A DNA stretch of 64,000 nucleotides from Salegentibacter sp. R32 (GTDB lineage Bacteria > Bacteroidota > Bacteroidia > Flavobacteriales > Flavobacteriaceae), in assembly GCF_008692195.1 (NCBI RefSeq), contig NZ_RXOM01000044.1:62001-126000 (forward strand). The letters run 5' to 3'. Shown piece by piece: positions 994 to 64,000 of this stretch. A program made the position numbers and the translations under genes. How positions within the stretch are numbered: position 1 is the stretch's first letter; the number at the start of each line of letters is the position of its first letter. A model generated the notes under the pieces. That model was not told the DNA's origin, did not search any database, and saw only the letters and a program-made list of their open reading frames with translations.

Positions 994-3900
994 TTGAGAA
1001 AAAATAATTTCTTCAATTTTAATTTTTCTTTCTTTGCACTCACGTTCTTTTTAGCAACGATGGGTGCTTTTTCTCAAGAAGAAGAAAATGAAACTGAGCA
1101 AGACTCAACCAAAACCGGTTATAGGTTAGGGCAAATACAGTTGCAAAATCCCAATAGTATTATAGGGAAATATACGTACGACCCTGTTTTAGACCGCTAT
1201 TTATATACAGAAAAGATTGGCGATGTAGATGTTTCTTATCCTATCGTGCTCACCCGAGAAGAATACCGACAGCTCATTTTAGAAGAGCAAATGAAGGAAT
1301 ACTTTAAACAGAAATCTGATGCGGTTTCTGGAAGGGACGAAGATTCAGAAGAATTTCAAAAGAATCTTTTACCAATTTTTTATGTAGATAATGAGTTTTT
1401 CGAATCTATTTTCGGTGGAACTGAAATTGAAGTCATTCCACAAGGTTCGGTAGAAGTTGATTTAGGGGTTTTGTATTCCAAACAAGATAACCCTTCACTT
1501 TCCCCAAGGAACAGAAGTAGCATGACCTTTGATTTTGAACAGCGAATTAGTTTAAGCTTATTGGGAAAAGTAGGGGAGCGTTTACAAGTAAATGCCAATT
1601 ATGATACTGAATCTACTTTCGATTTTCAGAATCAGATTAAGTTAGAATATACGCCTGATGAAGATGATATTGTAAGAAAAATTGAAGTAGGTAACGTAAG
1701 TATGCCTATCAATAATTCACTTATTCAGGGTTCGCAGAGTTTATTCGGGGTAAAAACACAACTTCAGTTTGGTAGAACGACCATAACCGGAGTTTTTTCT
1801 GAACAAAATTCAGAACGACAAACCACCCAAGTACAAGGAGGTGGAGCTGTACAGGAATTTGAAAAATTCATCTTAGATTATGATGAAAACAAACATTTCT
1901 TCTTGTCTCATTACTTCAGGGATCATTATAACGATGCTTTAGAGAATTATCCATTTAGAAATAGTAACGTTCAGGTTACCAGAATCCAAATTTGGGTAAC
2001 CAACCGAACTAACAACGTACAATCCTTAACCAATGCCAGAAATATTGTGGCAATTCAGGATTTAGGGGAGTCTGATCCTGAAAATATCGGGGTTTTATTA
2101 GATGCTGAAGGAAACCCAAATAACGATCCTGCATTTACCAATTTCTTAAATTCAGCACCGGGAGCCTATCCAAGTAACGCCAATAACGATTTTAACCCCT
2201 TAGGAATTACAGGTCCGCAGCAATCAGTGTTAACACAGGCAATTAGGGATATATCGAGTGTTCAGCAGGGCTTCGGAGTCAATTCAGGCGATGTAAGCGA
2301 AGGTGTAGATTATGCCAAACTTGAAAATGCTAGACAGCTTCAAACCAATGAATATACCTTATATCCGCAGTTAGGATATATCTCTTTGAATCAAAGAATC
2401 ACCAATGATGAAGTTTTAGCGGTTGCTTATCAATATACCGTAAACGGTCAAGTTTATCAAGTTGGGGAATTTGCCAATGACGGAGTGCAAGCTACAAATC
2501 CTCAGCAGCAACAACCTAACAATGATCAGGATGTAGATGTTGCTGTAACGCAGAACTTGGTGGTGAAAATGCTGAAAAGTCCTATCACCAATGTGAATGA
2601 ACCAATTTGGGACTTGATGATGAAAAACATCTATAGTTTAGGGGCTTATCAGTTAGAAAAAGAAGATTTTAGATTCAATATTCTTTATACAGATCCGCAG
2701 CCATTAAACTATATTACTCCTGCAGGTTCAACACCTTTACCGGGGGATGTGGAAGATACCAATCTGTTGCGGGTATTCTATTTAGATAACCTGAATTTAA
2801 ACAATGACCCGATTGTTGGTGGTGATGGTTTTTTTGATTATGTCCCGAATACTACCATTGATACTGAAAATGGTAGAATCATCTTTACCAAGGTAGAGCC
2901 TTTTGGGGAATATTTATTCGAAAAACTGGATAACACTCCTAATGGTGGCTCGGAAGATTATAATAATCCTGTAACCTATAATGATAACCAACAGAAGTAC
3001 GTTTTCAGGTCTTTATATAACACCACCAAAACACAAGCCGAACAAGAACAAGCAGATAAAAATAAATTCCAATTAAAAGGAAGTTATAAATCATCGGGAC
3101 AAGATGGTATTCCTATCGGGGCGTTTAACGTTCCGCAAGGTTCTGTTACCGTTACTGCCGGAGGACGTGTACTTCAAGAAGGAGTAGATTATACCGTAGA
3201 TTATCAACTGGGAAGGGTGAAAATTTTAGATGAAGCATTATTGGCTTCAGATACACCAATTCAAGTTTCGACTGAAAATAATGCAATGTTCGGTCAGCAA
3301 ACCAAACGTTTTACAGGAATAGATGTTCAGCATCAATTCAATGAAAACTTCCTAATTGGGGGTACGTACGTAAACTTAAACGAGCGACCATTAACCCAAA
3401 AAGCAAACTACAGTTACGAGCCTATCAATAACTCGATGTATGGTTTCAACATTAATTACTCTACCGAAGTTCCTTTCTTTACCCGCTTAGTTAATAAGCT
3501 TCCTAATATTGATACCGATGTGGAGTCTAACCTTTCGGTGAGAGGGGAGTTTGCTTATTTACATCCTGGTTCTCCAAAAGGGGATAATTTTAATGGAGAA
3601 GTGACCAGTTATGTCGATGATTTTGAAGCTTCACAAACTTCTATTTCAATTCTATCACCACTTTCATGGAGCTTGTCCAGTGCGCCTGTTGGTTTTGGAG
3701 GAGAATTGGCTAATAACGACTTAGCGGTAAACTATAAACGGGCAAAATTAAACTGGTATAATATTGACCCTATTTTTTATAGCAATCAACGTCCGGGTGG
3801 AGTAAGCGATGAAGATCTTTCCAGCTATTCGACACGACGTGTTTTTATAGATGAAATTTATCCGAATACCGATATTGTTCAAGGACAGCCACAAGTAATT

Positions 3901-6900
3901 TATACGTTAGATTTAGCTTATTATCCTGATCAACGAGGGCAGTTCAACTTTAATCCAGCTGCATCAGGAAGTAATAATTTACCTAATCCTGAAGAGAATT
4001 TCGGGGGAATTATGCGTGAAATTACCACTACTAACTTTGAGCAATCAAATGTAGAATTTATTGAGGTTTGGGTGATGGATCCTTTCGTTTATGATGAAAA
4101 CAATGGAATTAATGAAGGTAAAATGACTTTTAACCTCGGAAGTATTTCTGAAGATGTTTTAAAAGACGGAAGAAAACAATACGAGAATGGCTTGCCTGAT
4201 GATGGTTCTACTGAAAATACCTTAGAAACGGAATATGGTAAAGTTCCTTCCAATCAGTCATTGGTTTATGCTTTCGACAGTGAAGGGCAACAAAGAACCA
4301 ATCAAGATATTGGTCTCGACGGATTAAGTGATGCTGAAGAACAAGCGAAATTTCCAAGTTTTGCCGGACTTGACGATCCTTCTAATGATAATTACGAATA
4401 CTATTTGGCCCGTGACGGTGGAATTTTGGAACGTTATTATAATTATAATGGAACTGAAGGAAACTCACCTACTGAAGTTGGTCAAAATAACCGGGGAAAT
4501 TCAACTGTGCCTTCTGTAGAAGATGTGAACCGTGATAATACCATGAATACTATTGATAGTTACTTTGAATACGAAGTGCCTATTTTTAGGGATATGAGTG
4601 TAGATAACAATACGAGTTCTATTGCCGGTGTAAATGAAGATTACATTACTGATGTAAAAGAGTTGAATACCACCATGCAAAACGGAGATCAAATTCCGGT
4701 ACGTTGGGTTCAGTTTAAAATCCCTTTAAGAACCGAGAGTGAGTACGCCGTAAATGGTATTGCAGATTTACGTTCAGTAAGGTTTATGAGAATGTTCCTA
4801 TCCGGTTTTCAAGATGATGTTGTAGTAAGATTAGGAGCTTTAAATTTAGTTAGAGGCGATTACAGAAGGTATAACCAAGCTATTGTTCCTAACGGAAGTG
4901 ACCCTGATAACACGCCGGGAACTACTTTAGAAGTGACAGCCGTAAGTGAAGAACAAACTTCAGACTATGTGACGCCTCCGGGGGTTGTACGGGAAGAATT
5001 GGTGAATAACAATCAAACCATTCGGGAAGATGAACAATCCTTGGCATTAACTGTAAAAGGCTTAGATCCTAATGATTCGCGTGGGGTTTATAAGAATTTT
5101 CAAGTAGATATGCGTCAGTATGAAAGCTTGAAAATGTTTTTACACGCTGAAAGTCTTCCGGCTCCGTCCCCAACATTACAAGATGGAGAGTTAACAGCAT
5201 TTCTAAGAATGGGAACCGATTTAACAGATAACTTTTATCAGATTGAAATTCCTTTAACCGTTAGCGATTTAAATTCAACTAATCCTAGAGATGTTTGGCC
5301 TGTGGAAAATGATATGGAACTTCCGCTATCATTATTACAGGAGGTCAAGTCGTTAATCATAGGAAATGATATTTATAATTCAGCTGAACTAAATTTCTTT
5401 ACTCCAAATTTAGAGCCTTCAGTAGGAAACACGTTAGGCGAAATGCGAGTTGGGATGAAAGGGAATCCGAGTTTTGGAAACATTCGTTTAATGATGCTTG
5501 GGGTGAAAAACACCGGAAATATAGATACTGCGGGAGAAGTTTGGTTTAACGAATTGAGATTAGCTGGTTTAAAAAATCAAGGTGGTTGGGCTGCTGTGGT
5601 GAATATGGATACCAACTTTGCAGATTTTGCAAATATTACCGCCACTGGAAGAAGAAGTACGGTAGGTTTTGGTTCTATAGAACAAGGTCCAAATCAACGA
5701 AGCCGTGAGGATCTGAAGCAATATGATATAGCTACCAATTTTAATATGGGGCAATTGCTACCAAAAACCTGGGGAATAAATGTTCCGTTAAGTTATAGTA
5801 GAGGAGAAGAATTAATCACCCCGCAATACGATCCTGAATATTTAGATCTTGAGTTGGAAACACTTTTGGATAATACTCAAGATGAAGATAGAAAGGACGA
5901 GTTGCGCGAAAGGGCAGAAGATTATACTAGAAGGCAAAGTGTGAGTGTTATTGGATTAAGAAAAGAAAGGGTGACCCAACCAGGAGAAGAAGCTCCTAAA
6001 CCGATGCCTTGGGATGTAGAGAATTTTGCATTTTCAGGTACTTATAATCAGGTAGATCATCGTGACTTTGAAATTGAAGAATCATTAGATCAAAGTGTGA
6101 ATGTTGGTGCGACTTATGATTATGGTTTTGAGCCTTTTAAAATTGAACCTTTCAAAAACATTAAGTATTTAGATAGTAGTGATTATTTTACAGCCATAAA
6201 AGATTTCAATCTAAATCTTTTACCAACAAGTCTATCGGCAAGTTCCAATATCACCCGTCAGTATAACGAACAAGTTTACCGTGAAATAAACTTACCGCCC
6301 GGTTCTTTAGGTTTACCAAAACTTTACCAAAGAAATTATTTATTCGATTGGCAATATACTGTCAATCATAATTTAACTGAATCATTAAGATTTACTTTTA
6401 ATTCTTCTAACAACAGGATTGTAAGAAACTATATCAATGATGAAAATGTACAGGATAATTCCATAGGTATTTGGGATGGCTTCTTTGATATAGGTCAACC
6501 CAACCAGCACTATCAAAGTTTGCAGCTTAATTATGATATTCCGTTTAATAAACTTCCCCCACTAGAGTTTTTAAGAGCGCAATATTCTTATACCGGAAAT
6601 TTTCAATGGCAAAAGGGTTCCGAAGTTTTACGAAGTTTAGAAGGAATTCCAGATTTAGGAAATACCATTCAAAACTCTAATACCCATCAAATAAATGCAA
6701 CTTTCGATATGGCCAAGTTGTATAATTTTGCAGGACTAAAAAAGAAAGGGGTAGCCAATAATCAAAGAAGAAGTAGGCTTAATTCACAAAGAGGAGGTAA
6801 TCGTTTAGGGTTTTCCAGAAGTCAAGAAGCCCAACAAGGTGAAGAGGCGAATAGTGATAATAAGCTTTCTGCAGGAGATAAAGCTGCTAATACCTTAATA

Positions 6901-8247
6901 GGTATTATTACCGGAGTTAAAAGAATTACCGCCAATTATCAAGAAACCAATGGTATTTATATGCCTGGTTATACTAATGATATTGGGTTTGCAGGTACAT
7001 TAAAACCAACTGCTGGATTTACTTTTGGTAGTCAAGCAGATATTCGGGAAATTGCAGCGAGAAATAGTTGGTTAACCATGTATCAGGAGTTTAATGAGCA
7101 GTATTCAGAAAATGAAATGAAAACGCTTACGCTTCAAGCCCAGTTAGACTTATTGCCCGATTTAACTATTGATTTGAATGCCAACCGAACCTATTCTGAA
7201 ACTTATACTGAGAACTATCGCGTAAACCAACAAGATTTACAATACCGTTCACTTACCCCTAATACTTTTGGTAATTTTAGTATTACCAATATTATGATTG
7301 GAACGGCCTTTAGTGAAAGTACACAAGAGTTTTCAGAAGCTTTTGAAACATTCCGTGAGAATAGACTTACTGTTGCTAACAGACTAGCGCAACAAGCAGG
7401 AATAGATACTAACAATCCAGATAATTTAGATGAAGAAGGTTACCCGACTGGATTTGGAAAAAATTCACAAGCAGTATTGCTTCCTGCATTTCTTTCGGCT
7501 TACACTACACAAAATGCAGAAGATGTTAATTTAGGGTTCAAAAAAAGTACACCACTTCCTAACTGGAATGTAAAATATACTGGATTAATGCGTTTAGATT
7601 GGTTTAAGAAAAGGTTTAGACGTTTTAGTTTGCAACATGGTTATTCTTCTATTTATAATGTAAATCAGTTTCAGACCAATTTAGATTACGATAGAAATAA
7701 CCCTTATGGAGATTTAAACCGTGATCAATCTGGGAATTTTAAAAATGAATATCTAATTTCTACGGTCAATTTGGTAGAACAGTTTTCTCCATTGGTGAAA
7801 GTAGATATGGAAATGAAAAATTCAGTGAAAATTCTTGCTGAAGTAAGAAAAGACAGGTCACTTTCTTTAAGTTTTGATAACAACCTTTTAACTGAAGTTC
7901 AAGGAAATGAGTATACTTTAGGGCTTGGTTATCGGGTGAAAGATATGAAAATTACTACTAAAATTGCCGGGCAACCCAGAGTATTAAGTAGTGATTTGAA
8001 TTTTAAAGCAGACGTTTCTTTTAGGAGAAATGAAACAATAATCCGATATTTGGACATTAATAATAGCCAGACCACAGCAGGACAAGATATTTGGACCATT
8101 AATTTCACGGCAGATTACGCGTTGTCCAAAAATTTAACGGCTATATTTTATTACGATCATACGTTTTCAGAATATGCTATATCAACGGCATTTCCGCAAA
8201 CAACAATCAGATCGGGTATTACATTAAGGTATAACTTTGGAAATTAA
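994..8247 (+). CDS. sprA: Cell-surface translocon protein SprA (type IX secretion)
   Basis: A 2417-residue protein, the size of SprA/Sov, which forms the very large outer-membrane beta-barrel through which type IX secretion substrates leave the cell; it is needed for gliding in Flavobacterium. A signal peptide covers about residues 1-28 (hydrophobic FFALTFFLATMGAFSQ). The remainder is rich in aromatic, Asn and Asp residues in alternating beta-strand patterns, and it ends in a C-terminal strand LRYNFGN. The start is the TTG at 994; the first in-frame ATG is codon 23, inside the signal peptide, so TTG is the only reasonable choice. It follows ruvA by four bases and precedes gcvH by 24. No frameshift or internal stop is present over 7.2 kb. 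Confidence 0.95.
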   Translation: MRKNNFFNFNFSFFALTFFLATMGAFSQEEENETEQDSTKTGYRLGQIQLQNPNSIIGKYTYDPVLDRYLYTEKIGDVDVSYPIVLTREEYRQLILEEQMKEYFKQKSDAVSGRDEDSEEFQKNLLPIFYVDNEFFESIFGGTEIEVIPQGSVEVDLGVLYSKQDNPSLSPRNRSSMTFDFEQRISLSLLGKVGERLQVNANYDTESTFDFQNQIKLEYTPDEDDIVRKIEVGNVSMPINNSLIQGSQSLFGVKTQLQFGRTTITGVFSEQNSERQTTQVQGGGAVQEFEKFILDYDENKHFFLSHYFRDHYNDALENYPFRNSNVQVTRIQIWVTNRTNNVQSLTNARNIVAIQDLGESDPENIGVLLDAEGNPNNDPAFTNFLNSAPGAYPSNANNDFNPLGITGPQQSVLTQAIRDISSVQQGFGVNSGDVSEGVDYAKLENARQLQTNEYTLYPQLGYISLNQRITNDEVLAVAYQYTVNGQVYQVGEFANDGVQATNPQQQQPNNDQDVDVAVTQNLVVKMLKSPITNVNEPIWDLMMKNIYSLGAYQLEKEDFRFNILYTDPQPLNYITPAGSTPLPGDVEDTNLLRVFYLDNLNLNNDPIVGGDGFFDYVPNTTIDTENGRIIFTKVEPFGEYLFEKLDNTPNGGSEDYNNPVTYNDNQQKYVFRSLYNTTKTQAEQEQADKNKFQLKGSYKSSGQDGIPIGAFNVPQGSVTVTAGGRVLQEGVDYTVDYQLGRVKILDEALLASDTPIQVSTENNAMFGQQTKRFTGIDVQHQFNENFLIGGTYVNLNERPLTQKANYSYEPINNSMYGFNINYSTEVPFFTRLVNKLPNIDTDVESNLSVRGEFAYLHPGSPKGDNFNGEVTSYVDDFEASQTSISILSPLSWSLSSAPVGFGGELANNDLAVNYKRAKLNWYNIDPIFYSNQRPGGVSDEDLSSYSTRRVFIDEIYPNTDIVQGQPQVIYTLDLAYYPDQRGQFNFNPAASGSNNLPNPEENFGGIMREITTTNFEQSNVEFIEVWVMDPFVYDENNGINEGKMTFNLGSISEDVLKDGRKQYENGLPDDGSTENTLETEYGKVPSNQSLVYAFDSEGQQRTNQDIGLDGLSDAEEQAKFPSFAGLDDPSNDNYEYYLARDGGILERYYNYNGTEGNSPTEVGQNNRGNSTVPSVEDVNRDNTMNTIDSYFEYEVPIFRDMSVDNNTSSIAGVNEDYITDVKELNTTMQNGDQIPVRWVQFKIPLRTESEYAVNGIADLRSVRFMRMFLSGFQDDVVVRLGALNLVRGDYRRYNQAIVPNGSDPDNTPGTTLEVTAVSEEQTSDYVTPPGVVREELVNNNQTIREDEQSLALTVKGLDPNDSRGVYKNFQVDMRQYESLKMFLHAESLPAPSPTLQDGELTAFLRMGTDLTDNFYQIEIPLTVSDLNSTNPRDVWPVENDMELPLSLLQEVKSLIIGNDIYNSAELNFFTPNLEPSVGNTLGEMRVGMKGNPSFGNIRLMMLGVKNTGNIDTAGEVWFNELRLAGLKNQGGWAAVVNMDTNFADFANITATGRRSTVGFGSIEQGPNQRSREDLKQYDIATNFNMGQLLPKTWGINVPLSYSRGEELITPQYDPEYLDLELETLLDNTQDEDRKDELRERAEDYTRRQSVSVIGLRKERVTQPGEEAPKPMPWDVENFAFSGTYNQVDHRDFEIEESLDQSVNVGATYDYGFEPFKIEPFKNIKYLDSSDYFTAIKDFNLNLLPTSLSASSNITRQYNEQVYREINLPPGSLGLPKLYQRNYLFDWQYTVNHNLTESLRFTFNSSNNRIVRNYINDENVQDNSIGIWDGFFDIGQPNQHYQSLQLNYDIPFNKLPPLEFLRAQYSYTGNFQWQKGSEVLRSLEGIPDLGNTIQNSNTHQINATFDMAKLYNFAGLKKKGVANNQRRSRLNSQRGGNRLGFSRSQEAQQGEEANSDNKLSAGDKAANTLIGIITGVKRITANYQETNGIYMPGYTNDIGFAGTLKPTAGFTFGSQADIREIAARNSWLTMYQEFNEQYSENEMKTLTLQAQLDLLPDLTIDLNANRTYSETYTENYRVNQQDLQYRSLTPNTFGNFSITNIMIGTAFSESTQEFSEAFETFRENRLTVANRLAQQAGIDTNNPDNLDEEGYPTGFGKNSQAVLLPAFLSAYTTQNAEDVNLGFKKSTPLPNWNVKYTGLMRLDWFKKRFRRFSLQHGYSSIYNVNQFQTNLDYDRNNPYGDLNRDQSGNFKNEYLISTVNLVEQFSPLVKVDMEMKNSVKILAEVRKDRSLSLSFDNNLLTEVQGNEYTLGLGYRVKDMKITTKIAGQPRVLSSDLNFKADVSFRRNETIIRYLDINNSQTTAGQDIWTINFTADYALSKNLTAIFYYDHTFSEYAISTAFPQTTIRSGITLRYNFGN

Positions 8248-57020: not shown

Positions 57021-58466
57021 TTAATTATTATCTGAATAACCTACAGGTTCACCAATAAGGGTTGCGGTTGTGCAGTCAAGAATTTTTACGTTTACAAAAT
57101 CACCTACTTTGTAATTTTCTTTTGGGAAAACCACCATGGTGTTTTGTGTGTTTCTACCGCTCCAATGCAAATCAGATTTTTTAGATTCTTTTTCAATGAG
57201 TACTTCTTCTACCTTTCCTAAGTGTTGTTGAGTACGGTAGTGTGAATGTTTTTGCTGAAGATCAATCACTTCTTGTAAACGTCTTTTCTTTACTTTTTCC
57301 GGAATATCATCTTCAAATTTTCTTCCTGCCATTGTTCCGGGTCTTTCAGAATACGCAAACATAAATCCGAAATCATATTTTACATATTCCATTAACGAAA
57401 GTGTGTCTTGATGATCTTCTTCTGTTTCTGTAGGGAAACCGGTGATCATATCTTGAGAGATCGCGCAGTCTGGAATAATTTTTCTGATATTATCGATTAA
57501 TTCAAAATATTCTTCACGCGTATGTAAACGATTCATTTTCTTTAAAATACGGTCGCTACCACTTTGTACCGGTAAATGAATGTATTTACAGATGTTTTTG
57601 TGTTTGGCCATCGCTTCAATTACATCCAAGGTCATATCCTGCGGATTAGACGTAGAGAAACGAATACGCATTTTTGGTTGTGCCTTTGCTACTAAATCTA
57701 ACAAACCGGCAAAGTTGACTGCGGTTGCTTTTTGTATTTCAGAAGCTTTGCTGAAATCTTTTTTGAGTCCGCCGCCATACCATAAATAACTATCTACGTT
57801 TTGCCCTAACAATGTGATTTCCTTAAAACCTTTTTCAGCTAAATCATTTACTTCTTCTAAAATACTTTGTGGGTCACGGCTACGTTCTCTTCCGCGGGTA
57901 AAAGGCACGACGCAAAAGGTACACATATTATCGCAACCTCTGGTGATCGATACAAAAGCGGAAACTCCGTTGGTTTGCAAACGCACTGGTGAAACATCGC
58001 CATAGGTTTCTTCTTTAGATAGAATTACATTGACTGCGTTTCTACCCTCTTCAACTTCGTCGATTAAGTTAGGTAGATCTTTATAGGCATCGGGACCCAC
58101 GACGAGATCTACGATTTTTTCTTCTTCAAGAAACTTTTCTTTTAAACGTTCTGCCATACAACCTAAAACGCCCACTTTCATTTTTGGGTTTTTACGTTTT
58201 ACAGCATTATATTTTTCTAGACGTTTTCTAACGGTTTGTTCTGCTTTTTCACGAATCGAACAAGTGTTCACCAAAACCAAATCTGCATCTTCTAATTGGT
58301 TGGTGGTATTAAAACCTTCTTTGGCTAAAATGGAAGCTACAATTTCACTATCACTAAAATTCATTTGGCAACCATAACTTTCGATAAAAAGTTTACGGCT
58401 GTTTTCTTTCTTTGGCTCCATCACCAAAGTACTTCCTTGTTTTTTTTCGTCAATTACCTTCTCCAT
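57021..58466 (-). CDS. miaB: tRNA-2-methylthio-N6-dimethylallyladenosine synthase MiaB
   Basis: A 481-residue radical-SAM methylthiotransferase that converts i6A37 to ms2i6A37 in tRNA. The N-terminal UPF0004 domain has its cluster cysteines Cys33, Cys69 and Cys103; the radical-SAM CxxxCxxC is Cys178, Cys182, Cys185 in [22 protein letters not shown]-terminal TRAM domain (about 405-475) contains [12 protein letters not shown] and VGDFVNVKI. It has its own strong promoter upstream. Confidence 0.97.
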
Positions 58467-58527: not shown

Positions 58528-58621
58528 ACTGACAGCTTTAAGATTTTTGAATTTTTCTTACGCAACCTTTTTAGGATGTAAACATCTACAAAATGTAGCT
58601 AATCAATTAATTATAACAATA

Positions 58622-59842
58622 ATGAAAAAAATACTTCTGCTTTTTGTTCTCGCCGGACTTTGTGTTGGTTGTGATGATGTTAATTCAAATTTAGAGCGAG
58701 TGCAAGTGGCCGTTCCGTTAACGATGTCTTTAGATGAATTTAGGTCTTCGGTTAGTGTGGAAAATGCGCAAAATATTGAAGAATCGGGTAAAATTTACAC
58801 CTATCACAACTTGATTTTTATTAATGATAATTTAAAAGGAGTTCACGTAATAGATAATAGTGATCCTTCTCATCCGGTTCAAAAGAATTTTTTGAAAATT
58901 CCACAAAATACTGATGTTGCGGTTAAAGATAACAAGTTGTATGCAAACAGTGGTCCCGATTTAGTAGTGTTTGATATTAGCAATGTTAATAATATTGAAT
59001 ATGAAACACGAATTGAAAATGTTTTTCCTAACTATTATCCGCCCGTTACAGAAGAAGCTGATTATATAGATTATCCTGAAATTGATTTTGCATCTGAAAT
59101 CATTATAGGTTATGAAGTAAAGGCAGAATTTAGAGAGCCTCAAAATGATATGGTATTGTTTACGAATGATGCTGTTGAAGTCGCTGGCGCAAGTGGAACC
59201 GGAGGTTCTATGGCTAGATTTAAAATTGTAAAAGATTACCTTTATACCGTTACGGAAAGCCAAATACATATCTTCGATATTAATTCCCCTGAAAATCCTG
59301 TGTCCATAAATTCAGAATACGTGGGATGGCAAATTGAAACCATTTTTTATCAAGATGATTATTTGTATTTAGGAAGTTCTAGTGGAATGTACATTTATGA
59401 TATTGCAAATGCTACTTCGCCTACATACGTTTCAGAAATTAGCCATGTGATGGGTTGCGATCCGGTGGTGGTCCAAGGAGATTTAGCATACGTGACGATT
59501 CGTGGTGGAAATATTTGCGGACAAGATTTTAGTCAGTTGGAAGTGATTGATGTTTCAGATAAAACACTCCCCGAACGTATAGCGGTTTATGAAATGAAAG
59601 AACCTTACGGGCTGGGGATAAAAGATAATAACTTATTTGTATGTGATGGAAGTGCAGGTTTAAAGGTTTATGACGCTTCAGCTTCACCGGAACTTACGTT
59701 AATCGATCAGTTTGAAGATATTGAAACTTTTGATGTAATTCCGCTAGAAAATGTGTTGTTGATGGTAGGAGGAGAAACACTTTACCAATATCGCTATACT
59801 TCAGAAGGTATTCAGCTTTTAAGTACGTTTAGTTTAAATTAA
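58622..59842 (+). CDS. Lipoprotein with LVIVD repeats
   Basis: A 406-residue lipoprotein with lipobox LCVGCD (Cys17). It carries several LVIVD-type repeats of about 40 residues, such as NDNLKGVHVIDNSDPSHPVQ, DNKLYANSGPDLVVFDISN, QDDYLYLGSSSGMYIYDIANATSPTYV and GDLAYVTIRGGNIC, a beta-propeller-like arrangement. Such proteins sit on the cell surface or in the periplasm, and their ligands are unknown. The frame is open from 58547, but the ATG at 58622 begins a proper lipoprotein signal. A terminator follows. Confidence 0.87.
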   Translation: MKKILLLFVLAGLCVGCDDVNSNLERVQVAVPLTMSLDEFRSSVSVENAQNIEESGKIYTYHNLIFINDNLKGVHVIDNSDPSHPVQKNFLKIPQNTDVAVKDNKLYANSGPDLVVFDISNVNNIEYETRIENVFPNYYPPVTEEADYIDYPEIDFASEIIIGYEVKAEFREPQNDMVLFTNDAVEVAGASGTGGSMARFKIVKDYLYTVTESQIHIFDINSPENPVSINSEYVGWQIETIFYQDDYLYLGSSSGMYIYDIANATSPTYVSEISHVMGCDPVVVQGDLAYVTIRGGNICGQDFSQLEVIDVSDKTLPERIAVYEMKEPYGLGIKDNNLFVCDGSAGLKVYDASASPELTLIDQFEDIETFDVIPLENVLLMVGGETLYQYRYTSEGIQLLSTFSLN

Positions 59843-60124: not shown

Positions 60125-62638
60125 ATGGCGAAGAATTTAGTGATTGTAGAGTCACCGGCAAAAGCAAAAACCATTGAAAAATTTCTAGGAAAAGACTATA
60201 AAGTAGAGTCGAGTTTTGGGCATATTGCCGACTTGCCTACCAAAGAGTTAGGTGTCGATGTAGACGGGAATTTTAAGCCAAAATATGTTGTTAGTAAAGA
60301 CAAGAAAGATGTTGTTCGAAAATTAAAAAATCTAGCTAAAAAATCTGAAATGGTTTGGCTGGCAAGTGATGAAGACCGCGAAGGAGAAGCGATTGCTTGG
60401 CACTTAGCAGAAGAGCTAAAGCTGGATAAAAATAAAACAAAACGAATTGTTTTTCACGAAATCACTAAAAATGCCATTTTAAAAGCCATAGAAAATCCAC
60501 GAGGGATCAATTATGACTTGGTAAACGCGCAACAAGCCAGAAGGGTTTTAGACCGATTGGTAGGTTATGAACTTTCACCGGTATTGTGGAGAAAAGTAAA
60601 AGGCGGACTTTCAGCCGGACGTGTACAATCGGTTTCTGTTCGATTAATTGTAGAGCGCGAGCGGGAAATTCAAGATTTTGAAACCACTGCCAGTTATCGA
60701 ATTGATGCCGAATTTTCTACCGTCGAAGGAAAATCATTTAAGGCAAAAATTCCAAAGAATTTTGATACGAGAGAAGAGGCGGAAGAGTTTCTTCAGCAAA
60801 ATATAGGTGCTAATTTTAAAGTAGCAGATTTAACAAAAAAACCTGCTAAGAAAACCCCGGCACCACCATTTACTACTTCTACGCTTCAACAGGAAGCTGC
60901 CAGAAAGTTATATTTCTCGGTAAGTAAAACCATGACGATGGCGCAACGTCTTTATGAAGCCGGTCATATTACTTATATGAGAACCGACAGCGTAAATCTT
61001 TCAGATGAAGCAAAGAAAGGAGCAGCAGGCGAAATTTCTTCAGCTTACGGAGAGAAATACCTGAAGCCAAGAAATTATAAAGGAAAATCTAAAGGAGCGC
61101 AAGAAGCGCACGAAGCAATTAGACCTACCCATTTTGAAAACCATACTGTAAATGTAGACCGCGATCAGCAGCGTTTATATGAATTAATTTGGAAACGTGC
61201 GATTGCTTCACAAATGAGTGACGCGCAATTAGAGCGTACTAATGTGAAAATTGAAGCTGATAAGCACGATAAACAATTCACGGCCAACGGAGAAATTTTA
61301 AAATTTGATGGTTTCTTAAAAGTTTACCTTGAAGGAACCGATGACGAAGAAGAAGAACAAGCAGGCTTATTGCCGGCGATGAAGGTAAACGATTCGCTTA
61401 AAAATAAATACATCACCGCAACGGAGCGTTTTACAAGACCTCCTTCCCGATATACGGAAGCTTCACTGGTGAAAAAGCTAGAAGAATTGGGGATTGGGAG
61501 ACCTTCCACTTATGCGCCGACTATTTCCACTATTCAGAATAGAAAATATATCGAGAAAGGTTCCATTGATGGTCAAGAACGTAACTACTCAAAATTTACC
61601 TTGAAGAACGATAAAGTTTCAGAAAAAACATTAACTGAAATGGTTGGTTCAGATAAAGGAAAGTTGATACCGACCGATGTGGGAATGGTAGTGAACGATT
61701 TCTTGGTTCAGCATTTTAAAAATATCTTGGATTATAATTTTACTGCCAAGGTAGAGCAGGATTTTGATGATATTGCTGAAGGAAACGAAAAATGGACCGA
61801 AATGATGAACGAGTTTTATAACGAGTTTCATCCTACGGTACAAGATGTAGCTGAAAATGCCGAGCGTGAAGTAGGTGAGCGTGTATTGGGTAAAGATCCT
61901 AAAACCGGGAAACCTGTAAGTGCGCGTCTGGGTAAATTTGGCCCAATGGTGCAAATTGGTTCTGTAGAAGATGATGAAAAACCTCAATTTGCTAGCCTAG
62001 GTCCAGATCAAACCTTAAATTCCATCACTTTTGAAGAAGCTTTAGATTTGTTTCAGCTTCCAAAAGAATTGGGAGAATATAAAGGAGAAAAGGTTGAGGT
62101 GAATAATGGTCGTTATGGTCCTTATGTAAAATTCGGAAAAAAATATGTTTCCTTAGAAAAAGGAGAAGACCCATTAGATGTTTCCTTTGATCGCGCAATG
62201 GAGTTAATTAAAGAGAAAGAAAAAGCAGACGCTCCTATTTATAATTACGAAGATAAAGATGTGCAAAAAGGCGTGGGTAGATTTGGTCCTTATTTAAAGT
62301 GGGATGGAATGTTTATTAACGTTAATAAGAAATATGATTTCGATAATCTTTCTGAAGATGATATTGTTGAATTGATCGAAGACAAGAAGAAGAAAGAAAG
62401 AGAAAAGTTGATTCATCACTGGGAAGATGAAGGTATTAAGGTAGAAAAAGCGCGTTGGGGCAGAAGTAAAATCACCAAAGGGAGAACAAAAATAGAATTG
62501 CCAAAAACGGTAGATGCTACTAAGCTTACGTTAGAAGAGGTAAAAGATCTTATCGCGAAAAAAGCTCCGAAAAAGAAAACTGCTAAAAAAAGCACCAAGA
62601 AGAAAACAACAGCAAAAAAGAAAACTACCAAAAAGTAA
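60125..62638 (+). CDS. topA: DNA topoisomerase I
   Basis: An 837-residue type IA topoisomerase that relaxes negative supercoils. The Toprim domain has Glu9 and the DEDRE acidic motif (82-86, WLASDEDREGEAIAWHL). The active-site tyrosine is Tyr284 in GHITYMRTDSVNLS. The C-terminal region (about 590-790) has topoisomerase C-terminal repeats (RLGKFGPMVQIG, NGRYGPYVKFG, VGRFGPYLKWD) instead of Cys4 zinc fingers, and ends in a Lys/Thr tail (about 800-837). The arginase-fold gene starts six bases after its stop. Confidence 0.97.
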   Translation: MAKNLVIVESPAKAKTIEKFLGKDYKVESSFGHIADLPTKELGVDVDGNFKPKYVVSKDKKDVVRKLKNLAKKSEMVWLASDEDREGEAIAWHLAEELKLDKNKTKRIVFHEITKNAILKAIENPRGINYDLVNAQQARRVLDRLVGYELSPVLWRKVKGGLSAGRVQSVSVRLIVEREREIQDFETTASYRIDAEFSTVEGKSFKAKIPKNFDTREEAEEFLQQNIGANFKVADLTKKPAKKTPAPPFTTSTLQQEAARKLYFSVSKTMTMAQRLYEAGHITYMRTDSVNLSDEAKKGAAGEISSAYGEKYLKPRNYKGKSKGAQEAHEAIRPTHFENHTVNVDRDQQRLYELIWKRAIASQMSDAQLERTNVKIEADKHDKQFTANGEILKFDGFLKVYLEGTDDEEEEQAGLLPAMKVNDSLKNKYITATERFTRPPSRYTEASLVKKLEELGIGRPSTYAPTISTIQNRKYIEKGSIDGQERNYSKFTLKNDKVSEKTLTEMVGSDKGKLIPTDVGMVVNDFLVQHFKNILDYNFTAKVEQDFDDIAEGNEKWTEMMNEFYNEFHPTVQDVAENAEREVGERVLGKDPKTGKPVSARLGKFGPMVQIGSVEDDEKPQFASLGPDQTLNSITFEEALDLFQLPKELGEYKGEKVEVNNGRYGPYVKFGKKYVSLEKGEDPLDVSFDRAMELIKEKEKADAPIYNYEDKDVQKGVGRFGPYLKWDGMFINVNKKYDFDNLSEDDIVELIEDKKKKEREKLIHHWEDEGIKVEKARWGRSKITKGRTKIELPKTVDATKLTLEEVKDLIAKKAPKKKTAKKSTKKKTTAKKKTTKK

Positions 62639-62644
62639 TTGTGC

Positions 62645-63799
62645 ATGAGTTTTGAGTTTCTTCGTCCTGTAGATAGCAATTTGGTTGAAAAAGCCGCATC
62701 GCTTCATAAATCTACGCTGGGAAATCAAATTTTATTTCATTCTGCAGAAGGAATGCCAGATTTATCTAATGTAAAGGTGGCAATTGTGGGAGTAATTGAA
62801 GATAGAAGGAGTAAGCAGCCACAGGATATTCCTTTTCATTACAATCAAGTTCGGGAAGAGTTTTATCAACTTTATTCTGGTAATTGGAACGAGAAAATTG
62901 CCGATTTAGGAGATATTTATCCGGGAGAAACCGTAGATGATACTTATTTTTTGCTGAAGTCTGTTACCGAAGATTTACTCAATAGAAGTATAGTCCCTAT
63001 TATTTTAGGAGGAAGTCAAGATTTAGCTTATGCTCAGTATCGTGCTTACGATGATTACGGTCAAATGGTGAATTTGGTAAATGTAGATGCCAAATTTGAT
63101 TTGGGCGATACCGAGCAAAAACTCTGTAATAAATCTTATGTAGGTAAAATGGTGGTCAATGAGCCTTACAATTTGTTTAATTATGCAAATATTGGCTATC
63201 AAACCTATTTTAATCCACAGGAAGAAATAAATTTAATTGAAAAACTTTTTTTTGAAGCCTATCGTTTAGGAGATATTTCTTCAGACATTACGCTTTCAGA
63301 ACCTGTGATGCGAGATGCTAATTTAGTGACAATTGATGTTTCTTCTGGAGCGATGCCCGGAGTTAATCCCGCAATGCCCAACGGCTTTAATGGGAAAGAA
63401 ATATGTGCACTGGCTCGCTATGCTGGTATAAGTGATAAAGTAAGTTCTTTTGGAGTATATGAAATTCAGGACTTGCATATTTCTAAAAATAGTGCTATGT
63501 TGGTGTCCCAAATTTTATGGTACTTTATTGAAGGCGTAAATTTTCGTAAAAAAGAATACAATAATTCATTCTTAAAAGAGTTTACAAAGTTTACGGTTCC
63601 ATTGGAAGACGAGGAACTTATTTTTTATAGAAGTGAATTGTCTGGAAGATGGTGGGTAGAAATACCGAATTCAAAAAGTTTTAACAATAAACTAAACAAA
63701 CAATCGTTATTGCCATGTAGCCATCAGGATTATTTAGATGCTTGCAATCAATTAATTCCAGAACGATGGTACAAGGCTTACAGGAAAAATGAAATTTAA
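62645..63799 (+). CDS. Arginase/formimidoylglutamase-fold protein with degenerate metal site
   Basis: A 384-residue protein of the ureohydrolase (arginase) superfamily, of the kind annotated as formimidoylglutamase in Flavobacteria. The three metal motifs are altered: LGGSQD at 121-126 has Gln125 where the GGxH histidine belongs; VDAKFD at 147-152 keeps Asp148 and Asp152 but has Lys150 for histidine; TIDVSSG at 229-235 keeps Asp231 but has Ser233 for the second aspartate. Half of the usual Mn ligands are lost, so hydrolase activity is doubtful. The ATG at 62645 is chosen over an upstream TTG at 62639. It sits between topA and gldK; 116 bases separate it from gldK. Confidence 0.85.
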   Translation: MSFEFLRPVDSNLVEKAASLHKSTLGNQILFHSAEGMPDLSNVKVAIVGVIEDRRSKQPQDIPFHYNQVREEFYQLYSGNWNEKIADLGDIYPGETVDDTYFLLKSVTEDLLNRSIVPIILGGSQDLAYAQYRAYDDYGQMVNLVNVDAKFDLGDTEQKLCNKSYVGKMVVNEPYNLFNYANIGYQTYFNPQEEINLIEKLFFEAYRLGDISSDITLSEPVMRDANLVTIDVSSGAMPGVNPAMPNGFNGKEICALARYAGISDKVSSFGVYEIQDLHISKNSAMLVSQILWYFIEGVNFRKKEYNNSFLKEFTKFTVPLEDEELIFYRSELSGRWWVEIPNSKSFNNKLNKQSLLPCSHQDYLDACNQLIPERWYKAYRKNEI

Positions 63800-63915: not shown

Positions 63916-64000
63916 ATGAAGAAAGTATTTTTAATTATTGCAGTAGCTTCTTTTTTGGCTAGTTGTAATAGTGGTAATCAAGGTCAGCTTGTAGGCGCCC
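63916..64000 (+). CDS. gldK: Gliding motility lipoprotein GldK, N-terminus (partial)
   Basis: The window ends after 28 codons. They give a lipoprotein signal with lipobox FLASC (Cys17), then NSGNQGQLVGA, the start expected of GldK, the outer-membrane ring lipoprotein of the type IX secretion and gliding machinery (PorK homologue). The topA, arginase-fold and gldK order is the usual one in Flavobacteria, where gldL, gldM and gldN follow. An ATG at 63911 is out of frame and closes at once. The assignment rests on the short N-terminus and the context. Confidence 0.78.
   Translation, partial: MKKVFLIIAVASFLASCNSGNQGQLVGA

Follow-up and report, generated by a model that had tools for sequence, protein, structure and literature searches.

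A conserved arginase-fold protein with a degenerate metal site, often encoded before gldK in one class of Bacteroidota

Introduction

Ureohydrolases combine the arginase fold with six ligands that hold two metals. Histone deacetylases are arginase-fold relatives with one metal, for which they retain the B-type site. The ligands of metal A in E. coli agmatinase are His126, Asp149, Asp153 and Asp230; those of metal B are Asp149, His151, Asp230 and Asp232 (PMC8125230, accessible part of the report). Metal-free members of the family have also been described. MetCb is an arginase-family pseudoenzyme without metal that binds its active cognate, and neither MetCa nor MetCb is active without the other (PMC11271267, accessible part). 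The same text cites the arginase-like protein of T. brucei and a fusobacterial ornithine decarboxylase/arginase domain as having no binuclear metal centre and as being 'functionally elusive'.

The window analysed here is a stretch of 64,000 nucleotides from Salegentibacter sp. R32 (contig NZ_RXOM01000044.1). Between topA and gldK it encodes an arginase-fold protein with a degenerate metal site, called the degenerate arginase below. Its best match in the PDB by profile search is the formimidoylglutamase HutG (B. subtilis 3m1r, 2.9e-15), which has the same fold; compared with HutG, three of the six ligands are replaced and a C-terminal domain is added. A paralogue with six ligands sits elsewhere in the genome, beside a presumed hutI. 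Against histone deacetylases the choice is the opposite one: the A-type set is kept and site B is lost. MetCb/MfmB, the metal-free subunit of metformin hydrolase, is the top phmmer match, and metformin hydrolase tops the Foldseek results; MetCb appears to be the same kind of object, an arginase-fold pseudoenzyme. MetCb works only with a co-encoded catalytic partner (PMC11271267, accessible part), whereas in 3 of 43 chosen genomes the degenerate arginase is alone in matching PF00491. Unlike in the trypanosomal and fusobacterial homologues cited in that report, the loss of ligands spans a bacterial class and accompanies a further domain. A literature search, which for most matches covered the listing, found no title or abstract on this protein, and the main text of PMC12635249 contained none of the six terms sought.

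Results

The open reading frame is intact and runs on the forward strand from an ATG at 62645 to a TAA at 63797-63799 (62645..63799, 384 residues). The protein matches Pfam Arginase (PF00491) with 50.4 bits (cut-off 22). The best-scoring NCBIfam model is formimidoylglutamase (TIGR01227), which at 59 bits does not reach its cut-off of 229.15. Using phmmer, the best match in the PDB was subunit B of metformin hydrolase, narrowly (8.2e-6, with agmatinase 3pzl at 9.5e-6). With a profile of the whole family, the nearest solved structures were formimidoylglutamase and agmatinase, and MetCb/MfmB was found at 1.1e-7. The arginase fold is retained: an AlphaFold2 model of the full-length protein (pLDDT 80.7, pTM 0.85) had its best Foldseek matches in the arginase-fold structures 8x3g, 3pzl and 3m1r (E 1.0e-13 to 2.4e-13). 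The protein thus has the fold of a ureohydrolase and lacks the six ligands for two metals. No signal peptide was seen when the sequence was inspected by eye, and the protein is probably cytosolic. Its closest relatives among the best 80 of 568 named matches are four Mesonia records with 77-83% identity.

Where ureohydrolases have their six ligands, the protein has Q125, D148, K150, D152, D231 and S233. Gln125 (63017..63019) replaces the metal-A His of the GGxH motif, which here is GGSQ. In the DAKFD motif, Asp148 (63086..63088) is retained at a bridging position, Lys150 (63092..63094) replaces the His that binds only metal B, and Asp152 (63098..63100) is retained at a metal-A position. In the DVS motif, the bridging Asp231 (63335..63337) is retained and Ser233 (63341..63343) replaces the Asp that binds only metal B; all six codons lie on the forward strand. 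Aligned with the agmatinase ligand sets (PMC8125230, accessible part), Lys150 and Ser233 would stand for the two metal-B-only ligands and Gln125 for a metal-A ligand. The motif readout agrees exactly with the first-pass annotation, which had listed the same three changes and the same three kept Asp residues.

The genome encodes two further PF00491 proteins on other contigs, and both read H-D-H-D-D-D in the same alignment columns. The alignment register is therefore sound, and the organism has ordinary arginase-fold proteins elsewhere. The open reading frame neighbouring one of these paralogues is presumably an arginine decarboxylase, and that neighbouring the other is taken to be an imidazolonepropionase (hutI). 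The earlier suggestion that the degenerate arginase does not serve histidine or arginine breakdown is supported by these locations.

Orthologues were collected from 234 loci: 80 named ones, which were the top 80 out of 568 confirmed matches, and others from further genomes. Removal of the two paralogue loci and of two repeats of the window gene left 230 distinct orthologues. They come from 57 GTDB families, most of which, Flavobacteriaceae (f1) aside, contribute one or two loci. All named loci were grouped with Flavobacteriaceae by title and sequence kinship, including L047, which is titled Cytophagaceae.

None of the 230 orthologues has all six ligands, compared with both of the paralogues from the window's own genome. 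Ligands were thus not restored in relatives, and the proposal of a pseudoenzyme or a changed chemistry stands. Both metal-B-only ligands are gone in 216 of the 230 sequences, and no sequence has both. Position 150 is Lys or Arg in 151/230 and His in 6. Position 233 is Asp in 8/230, with the caveat that seven of these are divergent f2 sequences in which the register at this position is doubtful. Among the metal-A positions, 125 is Gln in 177, His in 29 and Asn in 12 of 230 sequences, and Asp is found at 148 in 213/230, at 152 in 204/230 and at 231 in 214/230. All three Asp residues occur together in 198/230, and position 125 in these is Gln (166), His (27) or Asn (5). Compared with the ligand sets that the accessible part of PMC8125230 gives for agmatinase, the family has therefore lost the two B-only ligands and kept the metal-A set. 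Gln125 alone is no proof of metal loss, since the arginase of Zymomonas carries a Cys at the equivalent position and is active (PMC6988801, accessible part). Sequencing error, a pseudogene and chance are ruled out as sources of the altered motifs by the intact reading frame and the absence of all six ligands from every orthologue.

Glu273, which shares a column with the Glu of the agmatinase-like paralogue, is kept in 153/230 sequences. In the column of the presumed catalytic His of paralogue L001 (His163 of E. coli agmatinase) the family mostly has Gly, Ser, Thr or Asn; the alignment is gappy there, and the catalytic His is likely, not certainly, gone as well. Four residues, Q186, E219, R223 and W292, are unchanged in 230/230 orthologues, and two of them (E219 and W292) are absent from both of the genome's paralogues. 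The conservation of W336 and C358 rounds to 100%. At the extreme end of the series stand the f2 orthologues L164-L170, which read N-S-I/V-S-N-D at the six positions and have lost the whole metal-A Asp triad; they retain Q186, E219, R223 and W292 despite this.

Residues 300-384 (about 85 aa; 63542..63796, forward strand) form a C-terminal domain with the pattern RWW..C..DY..ERW. In a sample of 247 genomes from the phylum, its profile found 54, each with a single match and all belonging to the class. Seven class genomes had no match, three of them from f2. The listed misses are ordered by kinship, and judging from this order the domain appears to be absent from all 186 sampled genomes outside the class. 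No PDB chain covering it was found with the whole-family profile. In the phylum sample and the PDB, the domain was seen solely in this arginase-like family. Modelled separately it gave a weak model (pLDDT 72.7, pTM 0.62), for which Foldseek returned nothing at a threshold of 0.001, and it is possibly a new small fold.

The location of the gene was confirmed as first described. The upstream neighbour, topA (60125..62638, forward strand), ends 6 bases before the ATG of the degenerate arginase. Downstream, gldK starts at 63916 on the same strand (63916..64000 in the window, a window position being the L114 position plus 57999), and gldK, gldL, gldM and gldN continue past the window end. The scan, of a kind that is weak, found no terminator-like site between topA and gldK, and topA and the degenerate arginase are probably co-transcribed. 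The conserved neighbourhood also includes a gene at 57021..58466 on the reverse strand, which is presumably of the miaB type. A 431-aa reading frame lies between miaB and topA (58547-59842, forward strand); it has no NCBIfam match at 1e-10 and is taken to encode a lipoprotein with propeller-like repeats. The same window carries sprA (TIGR04189, 2807.6 bits) at 994-8247 on the forward strand, about 56 kb upstream of gldK.

An old gene order runs topA, degenerate arginase and gldKLMN, and at many loci a porP-like gene precedes gldK. In 31 of 57 families, gldK follows on the same strand at a distance of up to 3.5 kb; in 24 it does not, and two families could not be judged. The linkage holds in all 122 Flavobacteriaceae loci and in 30 further families. 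Two of four f5 loci have gldK on the opposite strand, at a distance of 1.3 kb. In f2, topA is within 3.7 kb upstream in 6/7 loci, and no gldK was seen within the 13 kb examined. A PorP/SprF-like gene recurs near the degenerate arginase (42 reading frames in 32 families, median distance 147 bases downstream, three on the opposite strand); a representative was identified as TIGR03519. The wider block, with miaB and a sigma-54 activator, is conserved too. Five loci (L175, L186, L193, L196 and L209) have two gldN-like genes in tandem downstream of gldM.

A quickly built tree with 124 rows, 44 of whose 121 inner branches were well supported, required 6 changes for gldK linkage and 10 for topA linkage. 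With only 6 changes, the linkage to gldK is mostly one old inherited arrangement. The place between topA and gldK is an old operon position and not proof of a function in secretion. Position 125 is Gln in 122 of the 126 gldK-linked loci with enough sequence, but the tree offers too few independent pairs to link Gln125 to gldK on this count. Among the loci outside the gldK-linked clade, 17 from 8 families have a divergent NAD-epimerase gene nearby. It was the only recurrent neighbour there, and no common pathway emerged among the neighbours of these loci.

Within the class, profile A2 detected the degenerate arginase in 244 of 256 genomes at 1e-10, leaving 12 genomes without it. A few of the matches are weak and may be fragments or divergent copies (G462, 5e-20; G064, 6e-37; G037, 1e-41). 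In the draw across the phylum, 46 Flavobacteriaceae genomes matched, and no genome of this family is among the misses listed. GldN (TIGR03523) was present in 249 of the same 256 class genomes, several of which have two or more GldN matches. Both proteins occurred together in 241/256 genomes. The degenerate arginase was found without GldN in G346, G436 and G593, GldN without the degenerate arginase in eight of the 249 (G406, G438, G337, G373, G528, G544, G190 and G249), and neither in G230, G238, G340 and G574. The co-occurrence is above expectation (odds ratio 40, Fisher p = 9e-5), with the caveat that shared descent is ignored.

SprA (TIGR04189) was sought in these 15 discordant or empty genomes. 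It is present in the eight GldN-only genomes, in pieces in G593, and missing from G346, G436, G230, G238, G340 and G574. GldN is also missing from 7 of 151 f3 genomes and from 49 of 294 genomes of the window's order, many of the latter being f124 genomes of about 0.6 Mb. Nineteen genomes were tested further: the seven f3 genomes without GldN, four other f3 genomes, and eight of the 49 from the order (G836, three of f119 and four of f124). Eight f3 genomes lack SprA (G346, G849, G923, G938, G951, G957, G864 and G948). Six of them also lack GldN; in G864 and G948 it is matched at about 1e-30. The degenerate arginase is matched over its full length in all eight, at 2.2e-153 or better, and in the seven that were read (all except G948) the D-D-D triad and the RWW motif are kept. 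Together with G436, nine SprA-less genomes keep the degenerate arginase, seven of them also having no GldN match. Eight other tested genomes lack both SprA and the degenerate arginase, namely G230, G238, G340, G574 and the four f124 genomes (0.3-0.6 Mb). Further combinations were found: G836, G648 and G944 have SprA and the degenerate arginase and no GldN match, and G631 and G640 have SprA but neither a GldN match nor a copy of the degenerate arginase. The gene was thus not consistently lost with the secretion system, nine SprA-less genomes keeping it and eight lacking it.

Covariation of evolutionary rates was analysed on a fixed tree (32 loci, 61 branches) for 21 pairs of proteins in eight variants. 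The residual rate of the degenerate arginase correlated with that of TopA (rho 0.40, p 0.0013). The values for the other neighbours were 0.16 (GldK), 0.16 (GldN), -0.30 (GldL), 0.24 (GldM) and 0.16 (MiaB), and the Gld proteins covaried among themselves with a mean of 0.31. The TopA signal holds in six of eight variants and is lost when terminal branches are used (0.25-0.26, p 0.16-0.17). For GldM, p was below 0.05 in three of eight variants, and rho ranged from 0.24 to 0.35 in four of them, those that used all branches or left out f59. For GldK and GldN, p was 0.05 or more in all eight variants, and the GldL correlations were negative. The correlation with MiaB, another housekeeping gene, was not significant. 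The rate of the degenerate arginase tracks TopA best and GldM weakly, a result that is suggestive only.

Discussion

The window protein appears to belong to an old family of pseudo-ureohydrolases with two domains, passed on for the most part by vertical descent within one class of Bacteroidota. That its chemistry has changed is well supported by the ligand alignment. On a balance tipped somewhat in its favour, the best explanation is that the protein is a pseudo-ureohydrolase, conserved and probably located in the cytosol, that has a general role in the cell and a metal-free, or at most one-metal, pocket, perhaps for a ligand or partner. Such a protein would not hydrolyse guanidino compounds. 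Lys or Arg at position 150 would place a positive charge at the former metal B site and bridge the remaining Asp cluster, so that the old active site would become a metal-free or at most one-metal pocket. The protein may then serve a general cell process in which it binds either a small ligand or another protein. Several findings count against this explanation: the co-occurrence with GldN, the 12 class genomes and the eight SprA-less genomes without the gene, the lack of a significant rate correlation with MiaB, the kept Asp triad, with His125 in 27 of its 198 sequences, and the frequent retention of Glu273. A dead site would not need to conserve the triad and His125 to this degree, and their retention fits a one-metal site.

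A one-metal enzyme is the main rival to the pseudo-ureohydrolase, although a doubtful one. Site A (position 125, Asp148, Asp152 and Asp231) would hold a single Mn, Fe, Ni or Zn and serve a different reaction. The kept residues are the site A set of E. coli agmatinase, the Zymomonas enzyme tolerates a different residue at position 125, and Glu273 persists in most sequences. The same agmatinase binds metal with low affinity at site A and with high affinity at site B (PMC8125230, accessible part), the Lys or Arg at 150 would crowd and repel a metal, and the seven f2 sequences persist without any Asp of the triad. A related proposal, rather unlikely, is a nearly class-universal housekeeping protein in which site B was stripped from an ancestral ureohydrolase, site A was kept as a single-metal or charge-relay centre, and a new C-terminal domain was added, giving an unrecognised chemistry or a sensor. 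MetCb suggests yet another function, that of an inactive subunit activating a catalytic arginase-family paralogue, as with MetCa. Metformin hydrolase does head the phmmer (narrowly) and Foldseek results, and its two subunits are each inactive alone; the profile search places formimidoylglutamase and agmatinase nearer, the paralogues of the window genome lie on other contigs, and the degenerate arginase is the only PF00491 match in G099, G261 and G346 (3 of 43 chosen genomes). There is thus no general dependence on a ureohydrolase partner. These three genomes rule the partnership out as the general role, and as an explanation of the window protein it is highly improbable.

The first-pass annotation had also proposed a role in type IX secretion or gliding, and this survives only in part. 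The adjacency to gldK is real and old, and a cytosolic accessory factor of the machinery would agree with the same-strand gldK in 31/57 families, the nearby gldK of opposite strand in f5, the common PorP/SprF-like neighbour, the co-occurrence with GldN in 241/256 genomes (descent ignored) and the GldM correlation. The 24 families without an adjacent gldK, the single inheritance behind most of the linkage and the conservation also of the wider block with miaB and the sigma-54 activator weaken the positional argument, and the correlations with GldK, GldN and GldL do not support such a factor. The distribution counts against it as well: full-length copies persist in nine SprA-less genomes, seven also without a GldN match, and the gene is absent from eight of 249 genomes with GldN and from G631 and G640, which have SprA. 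A dedicated role is unlikely and was mostly rejected on the nine SprA-less genomes that keep the gene and the eight GldN genomes that lack it; an accessory factor of this kind is improbable.

For the pseudo-ureohydrolase favoured here, some practical consequences follow. Naming the protein by similarity would lead to wrong predictions of histidine degradation, because the best NCBIfam model is formimidoylglutamase, far below its cut-off. Mutant and expression work on the gldK region should account for the degenerate arginase, since the gene often lies directly before core type IX secretion genes. The degenerate arginase is a constrained, nearly class-universal protein, and its family shows many natural stages in the degeneration of a ureohydrolase, from sequences having His125 with an intact A site to those in which the whole Asp triad is lost.
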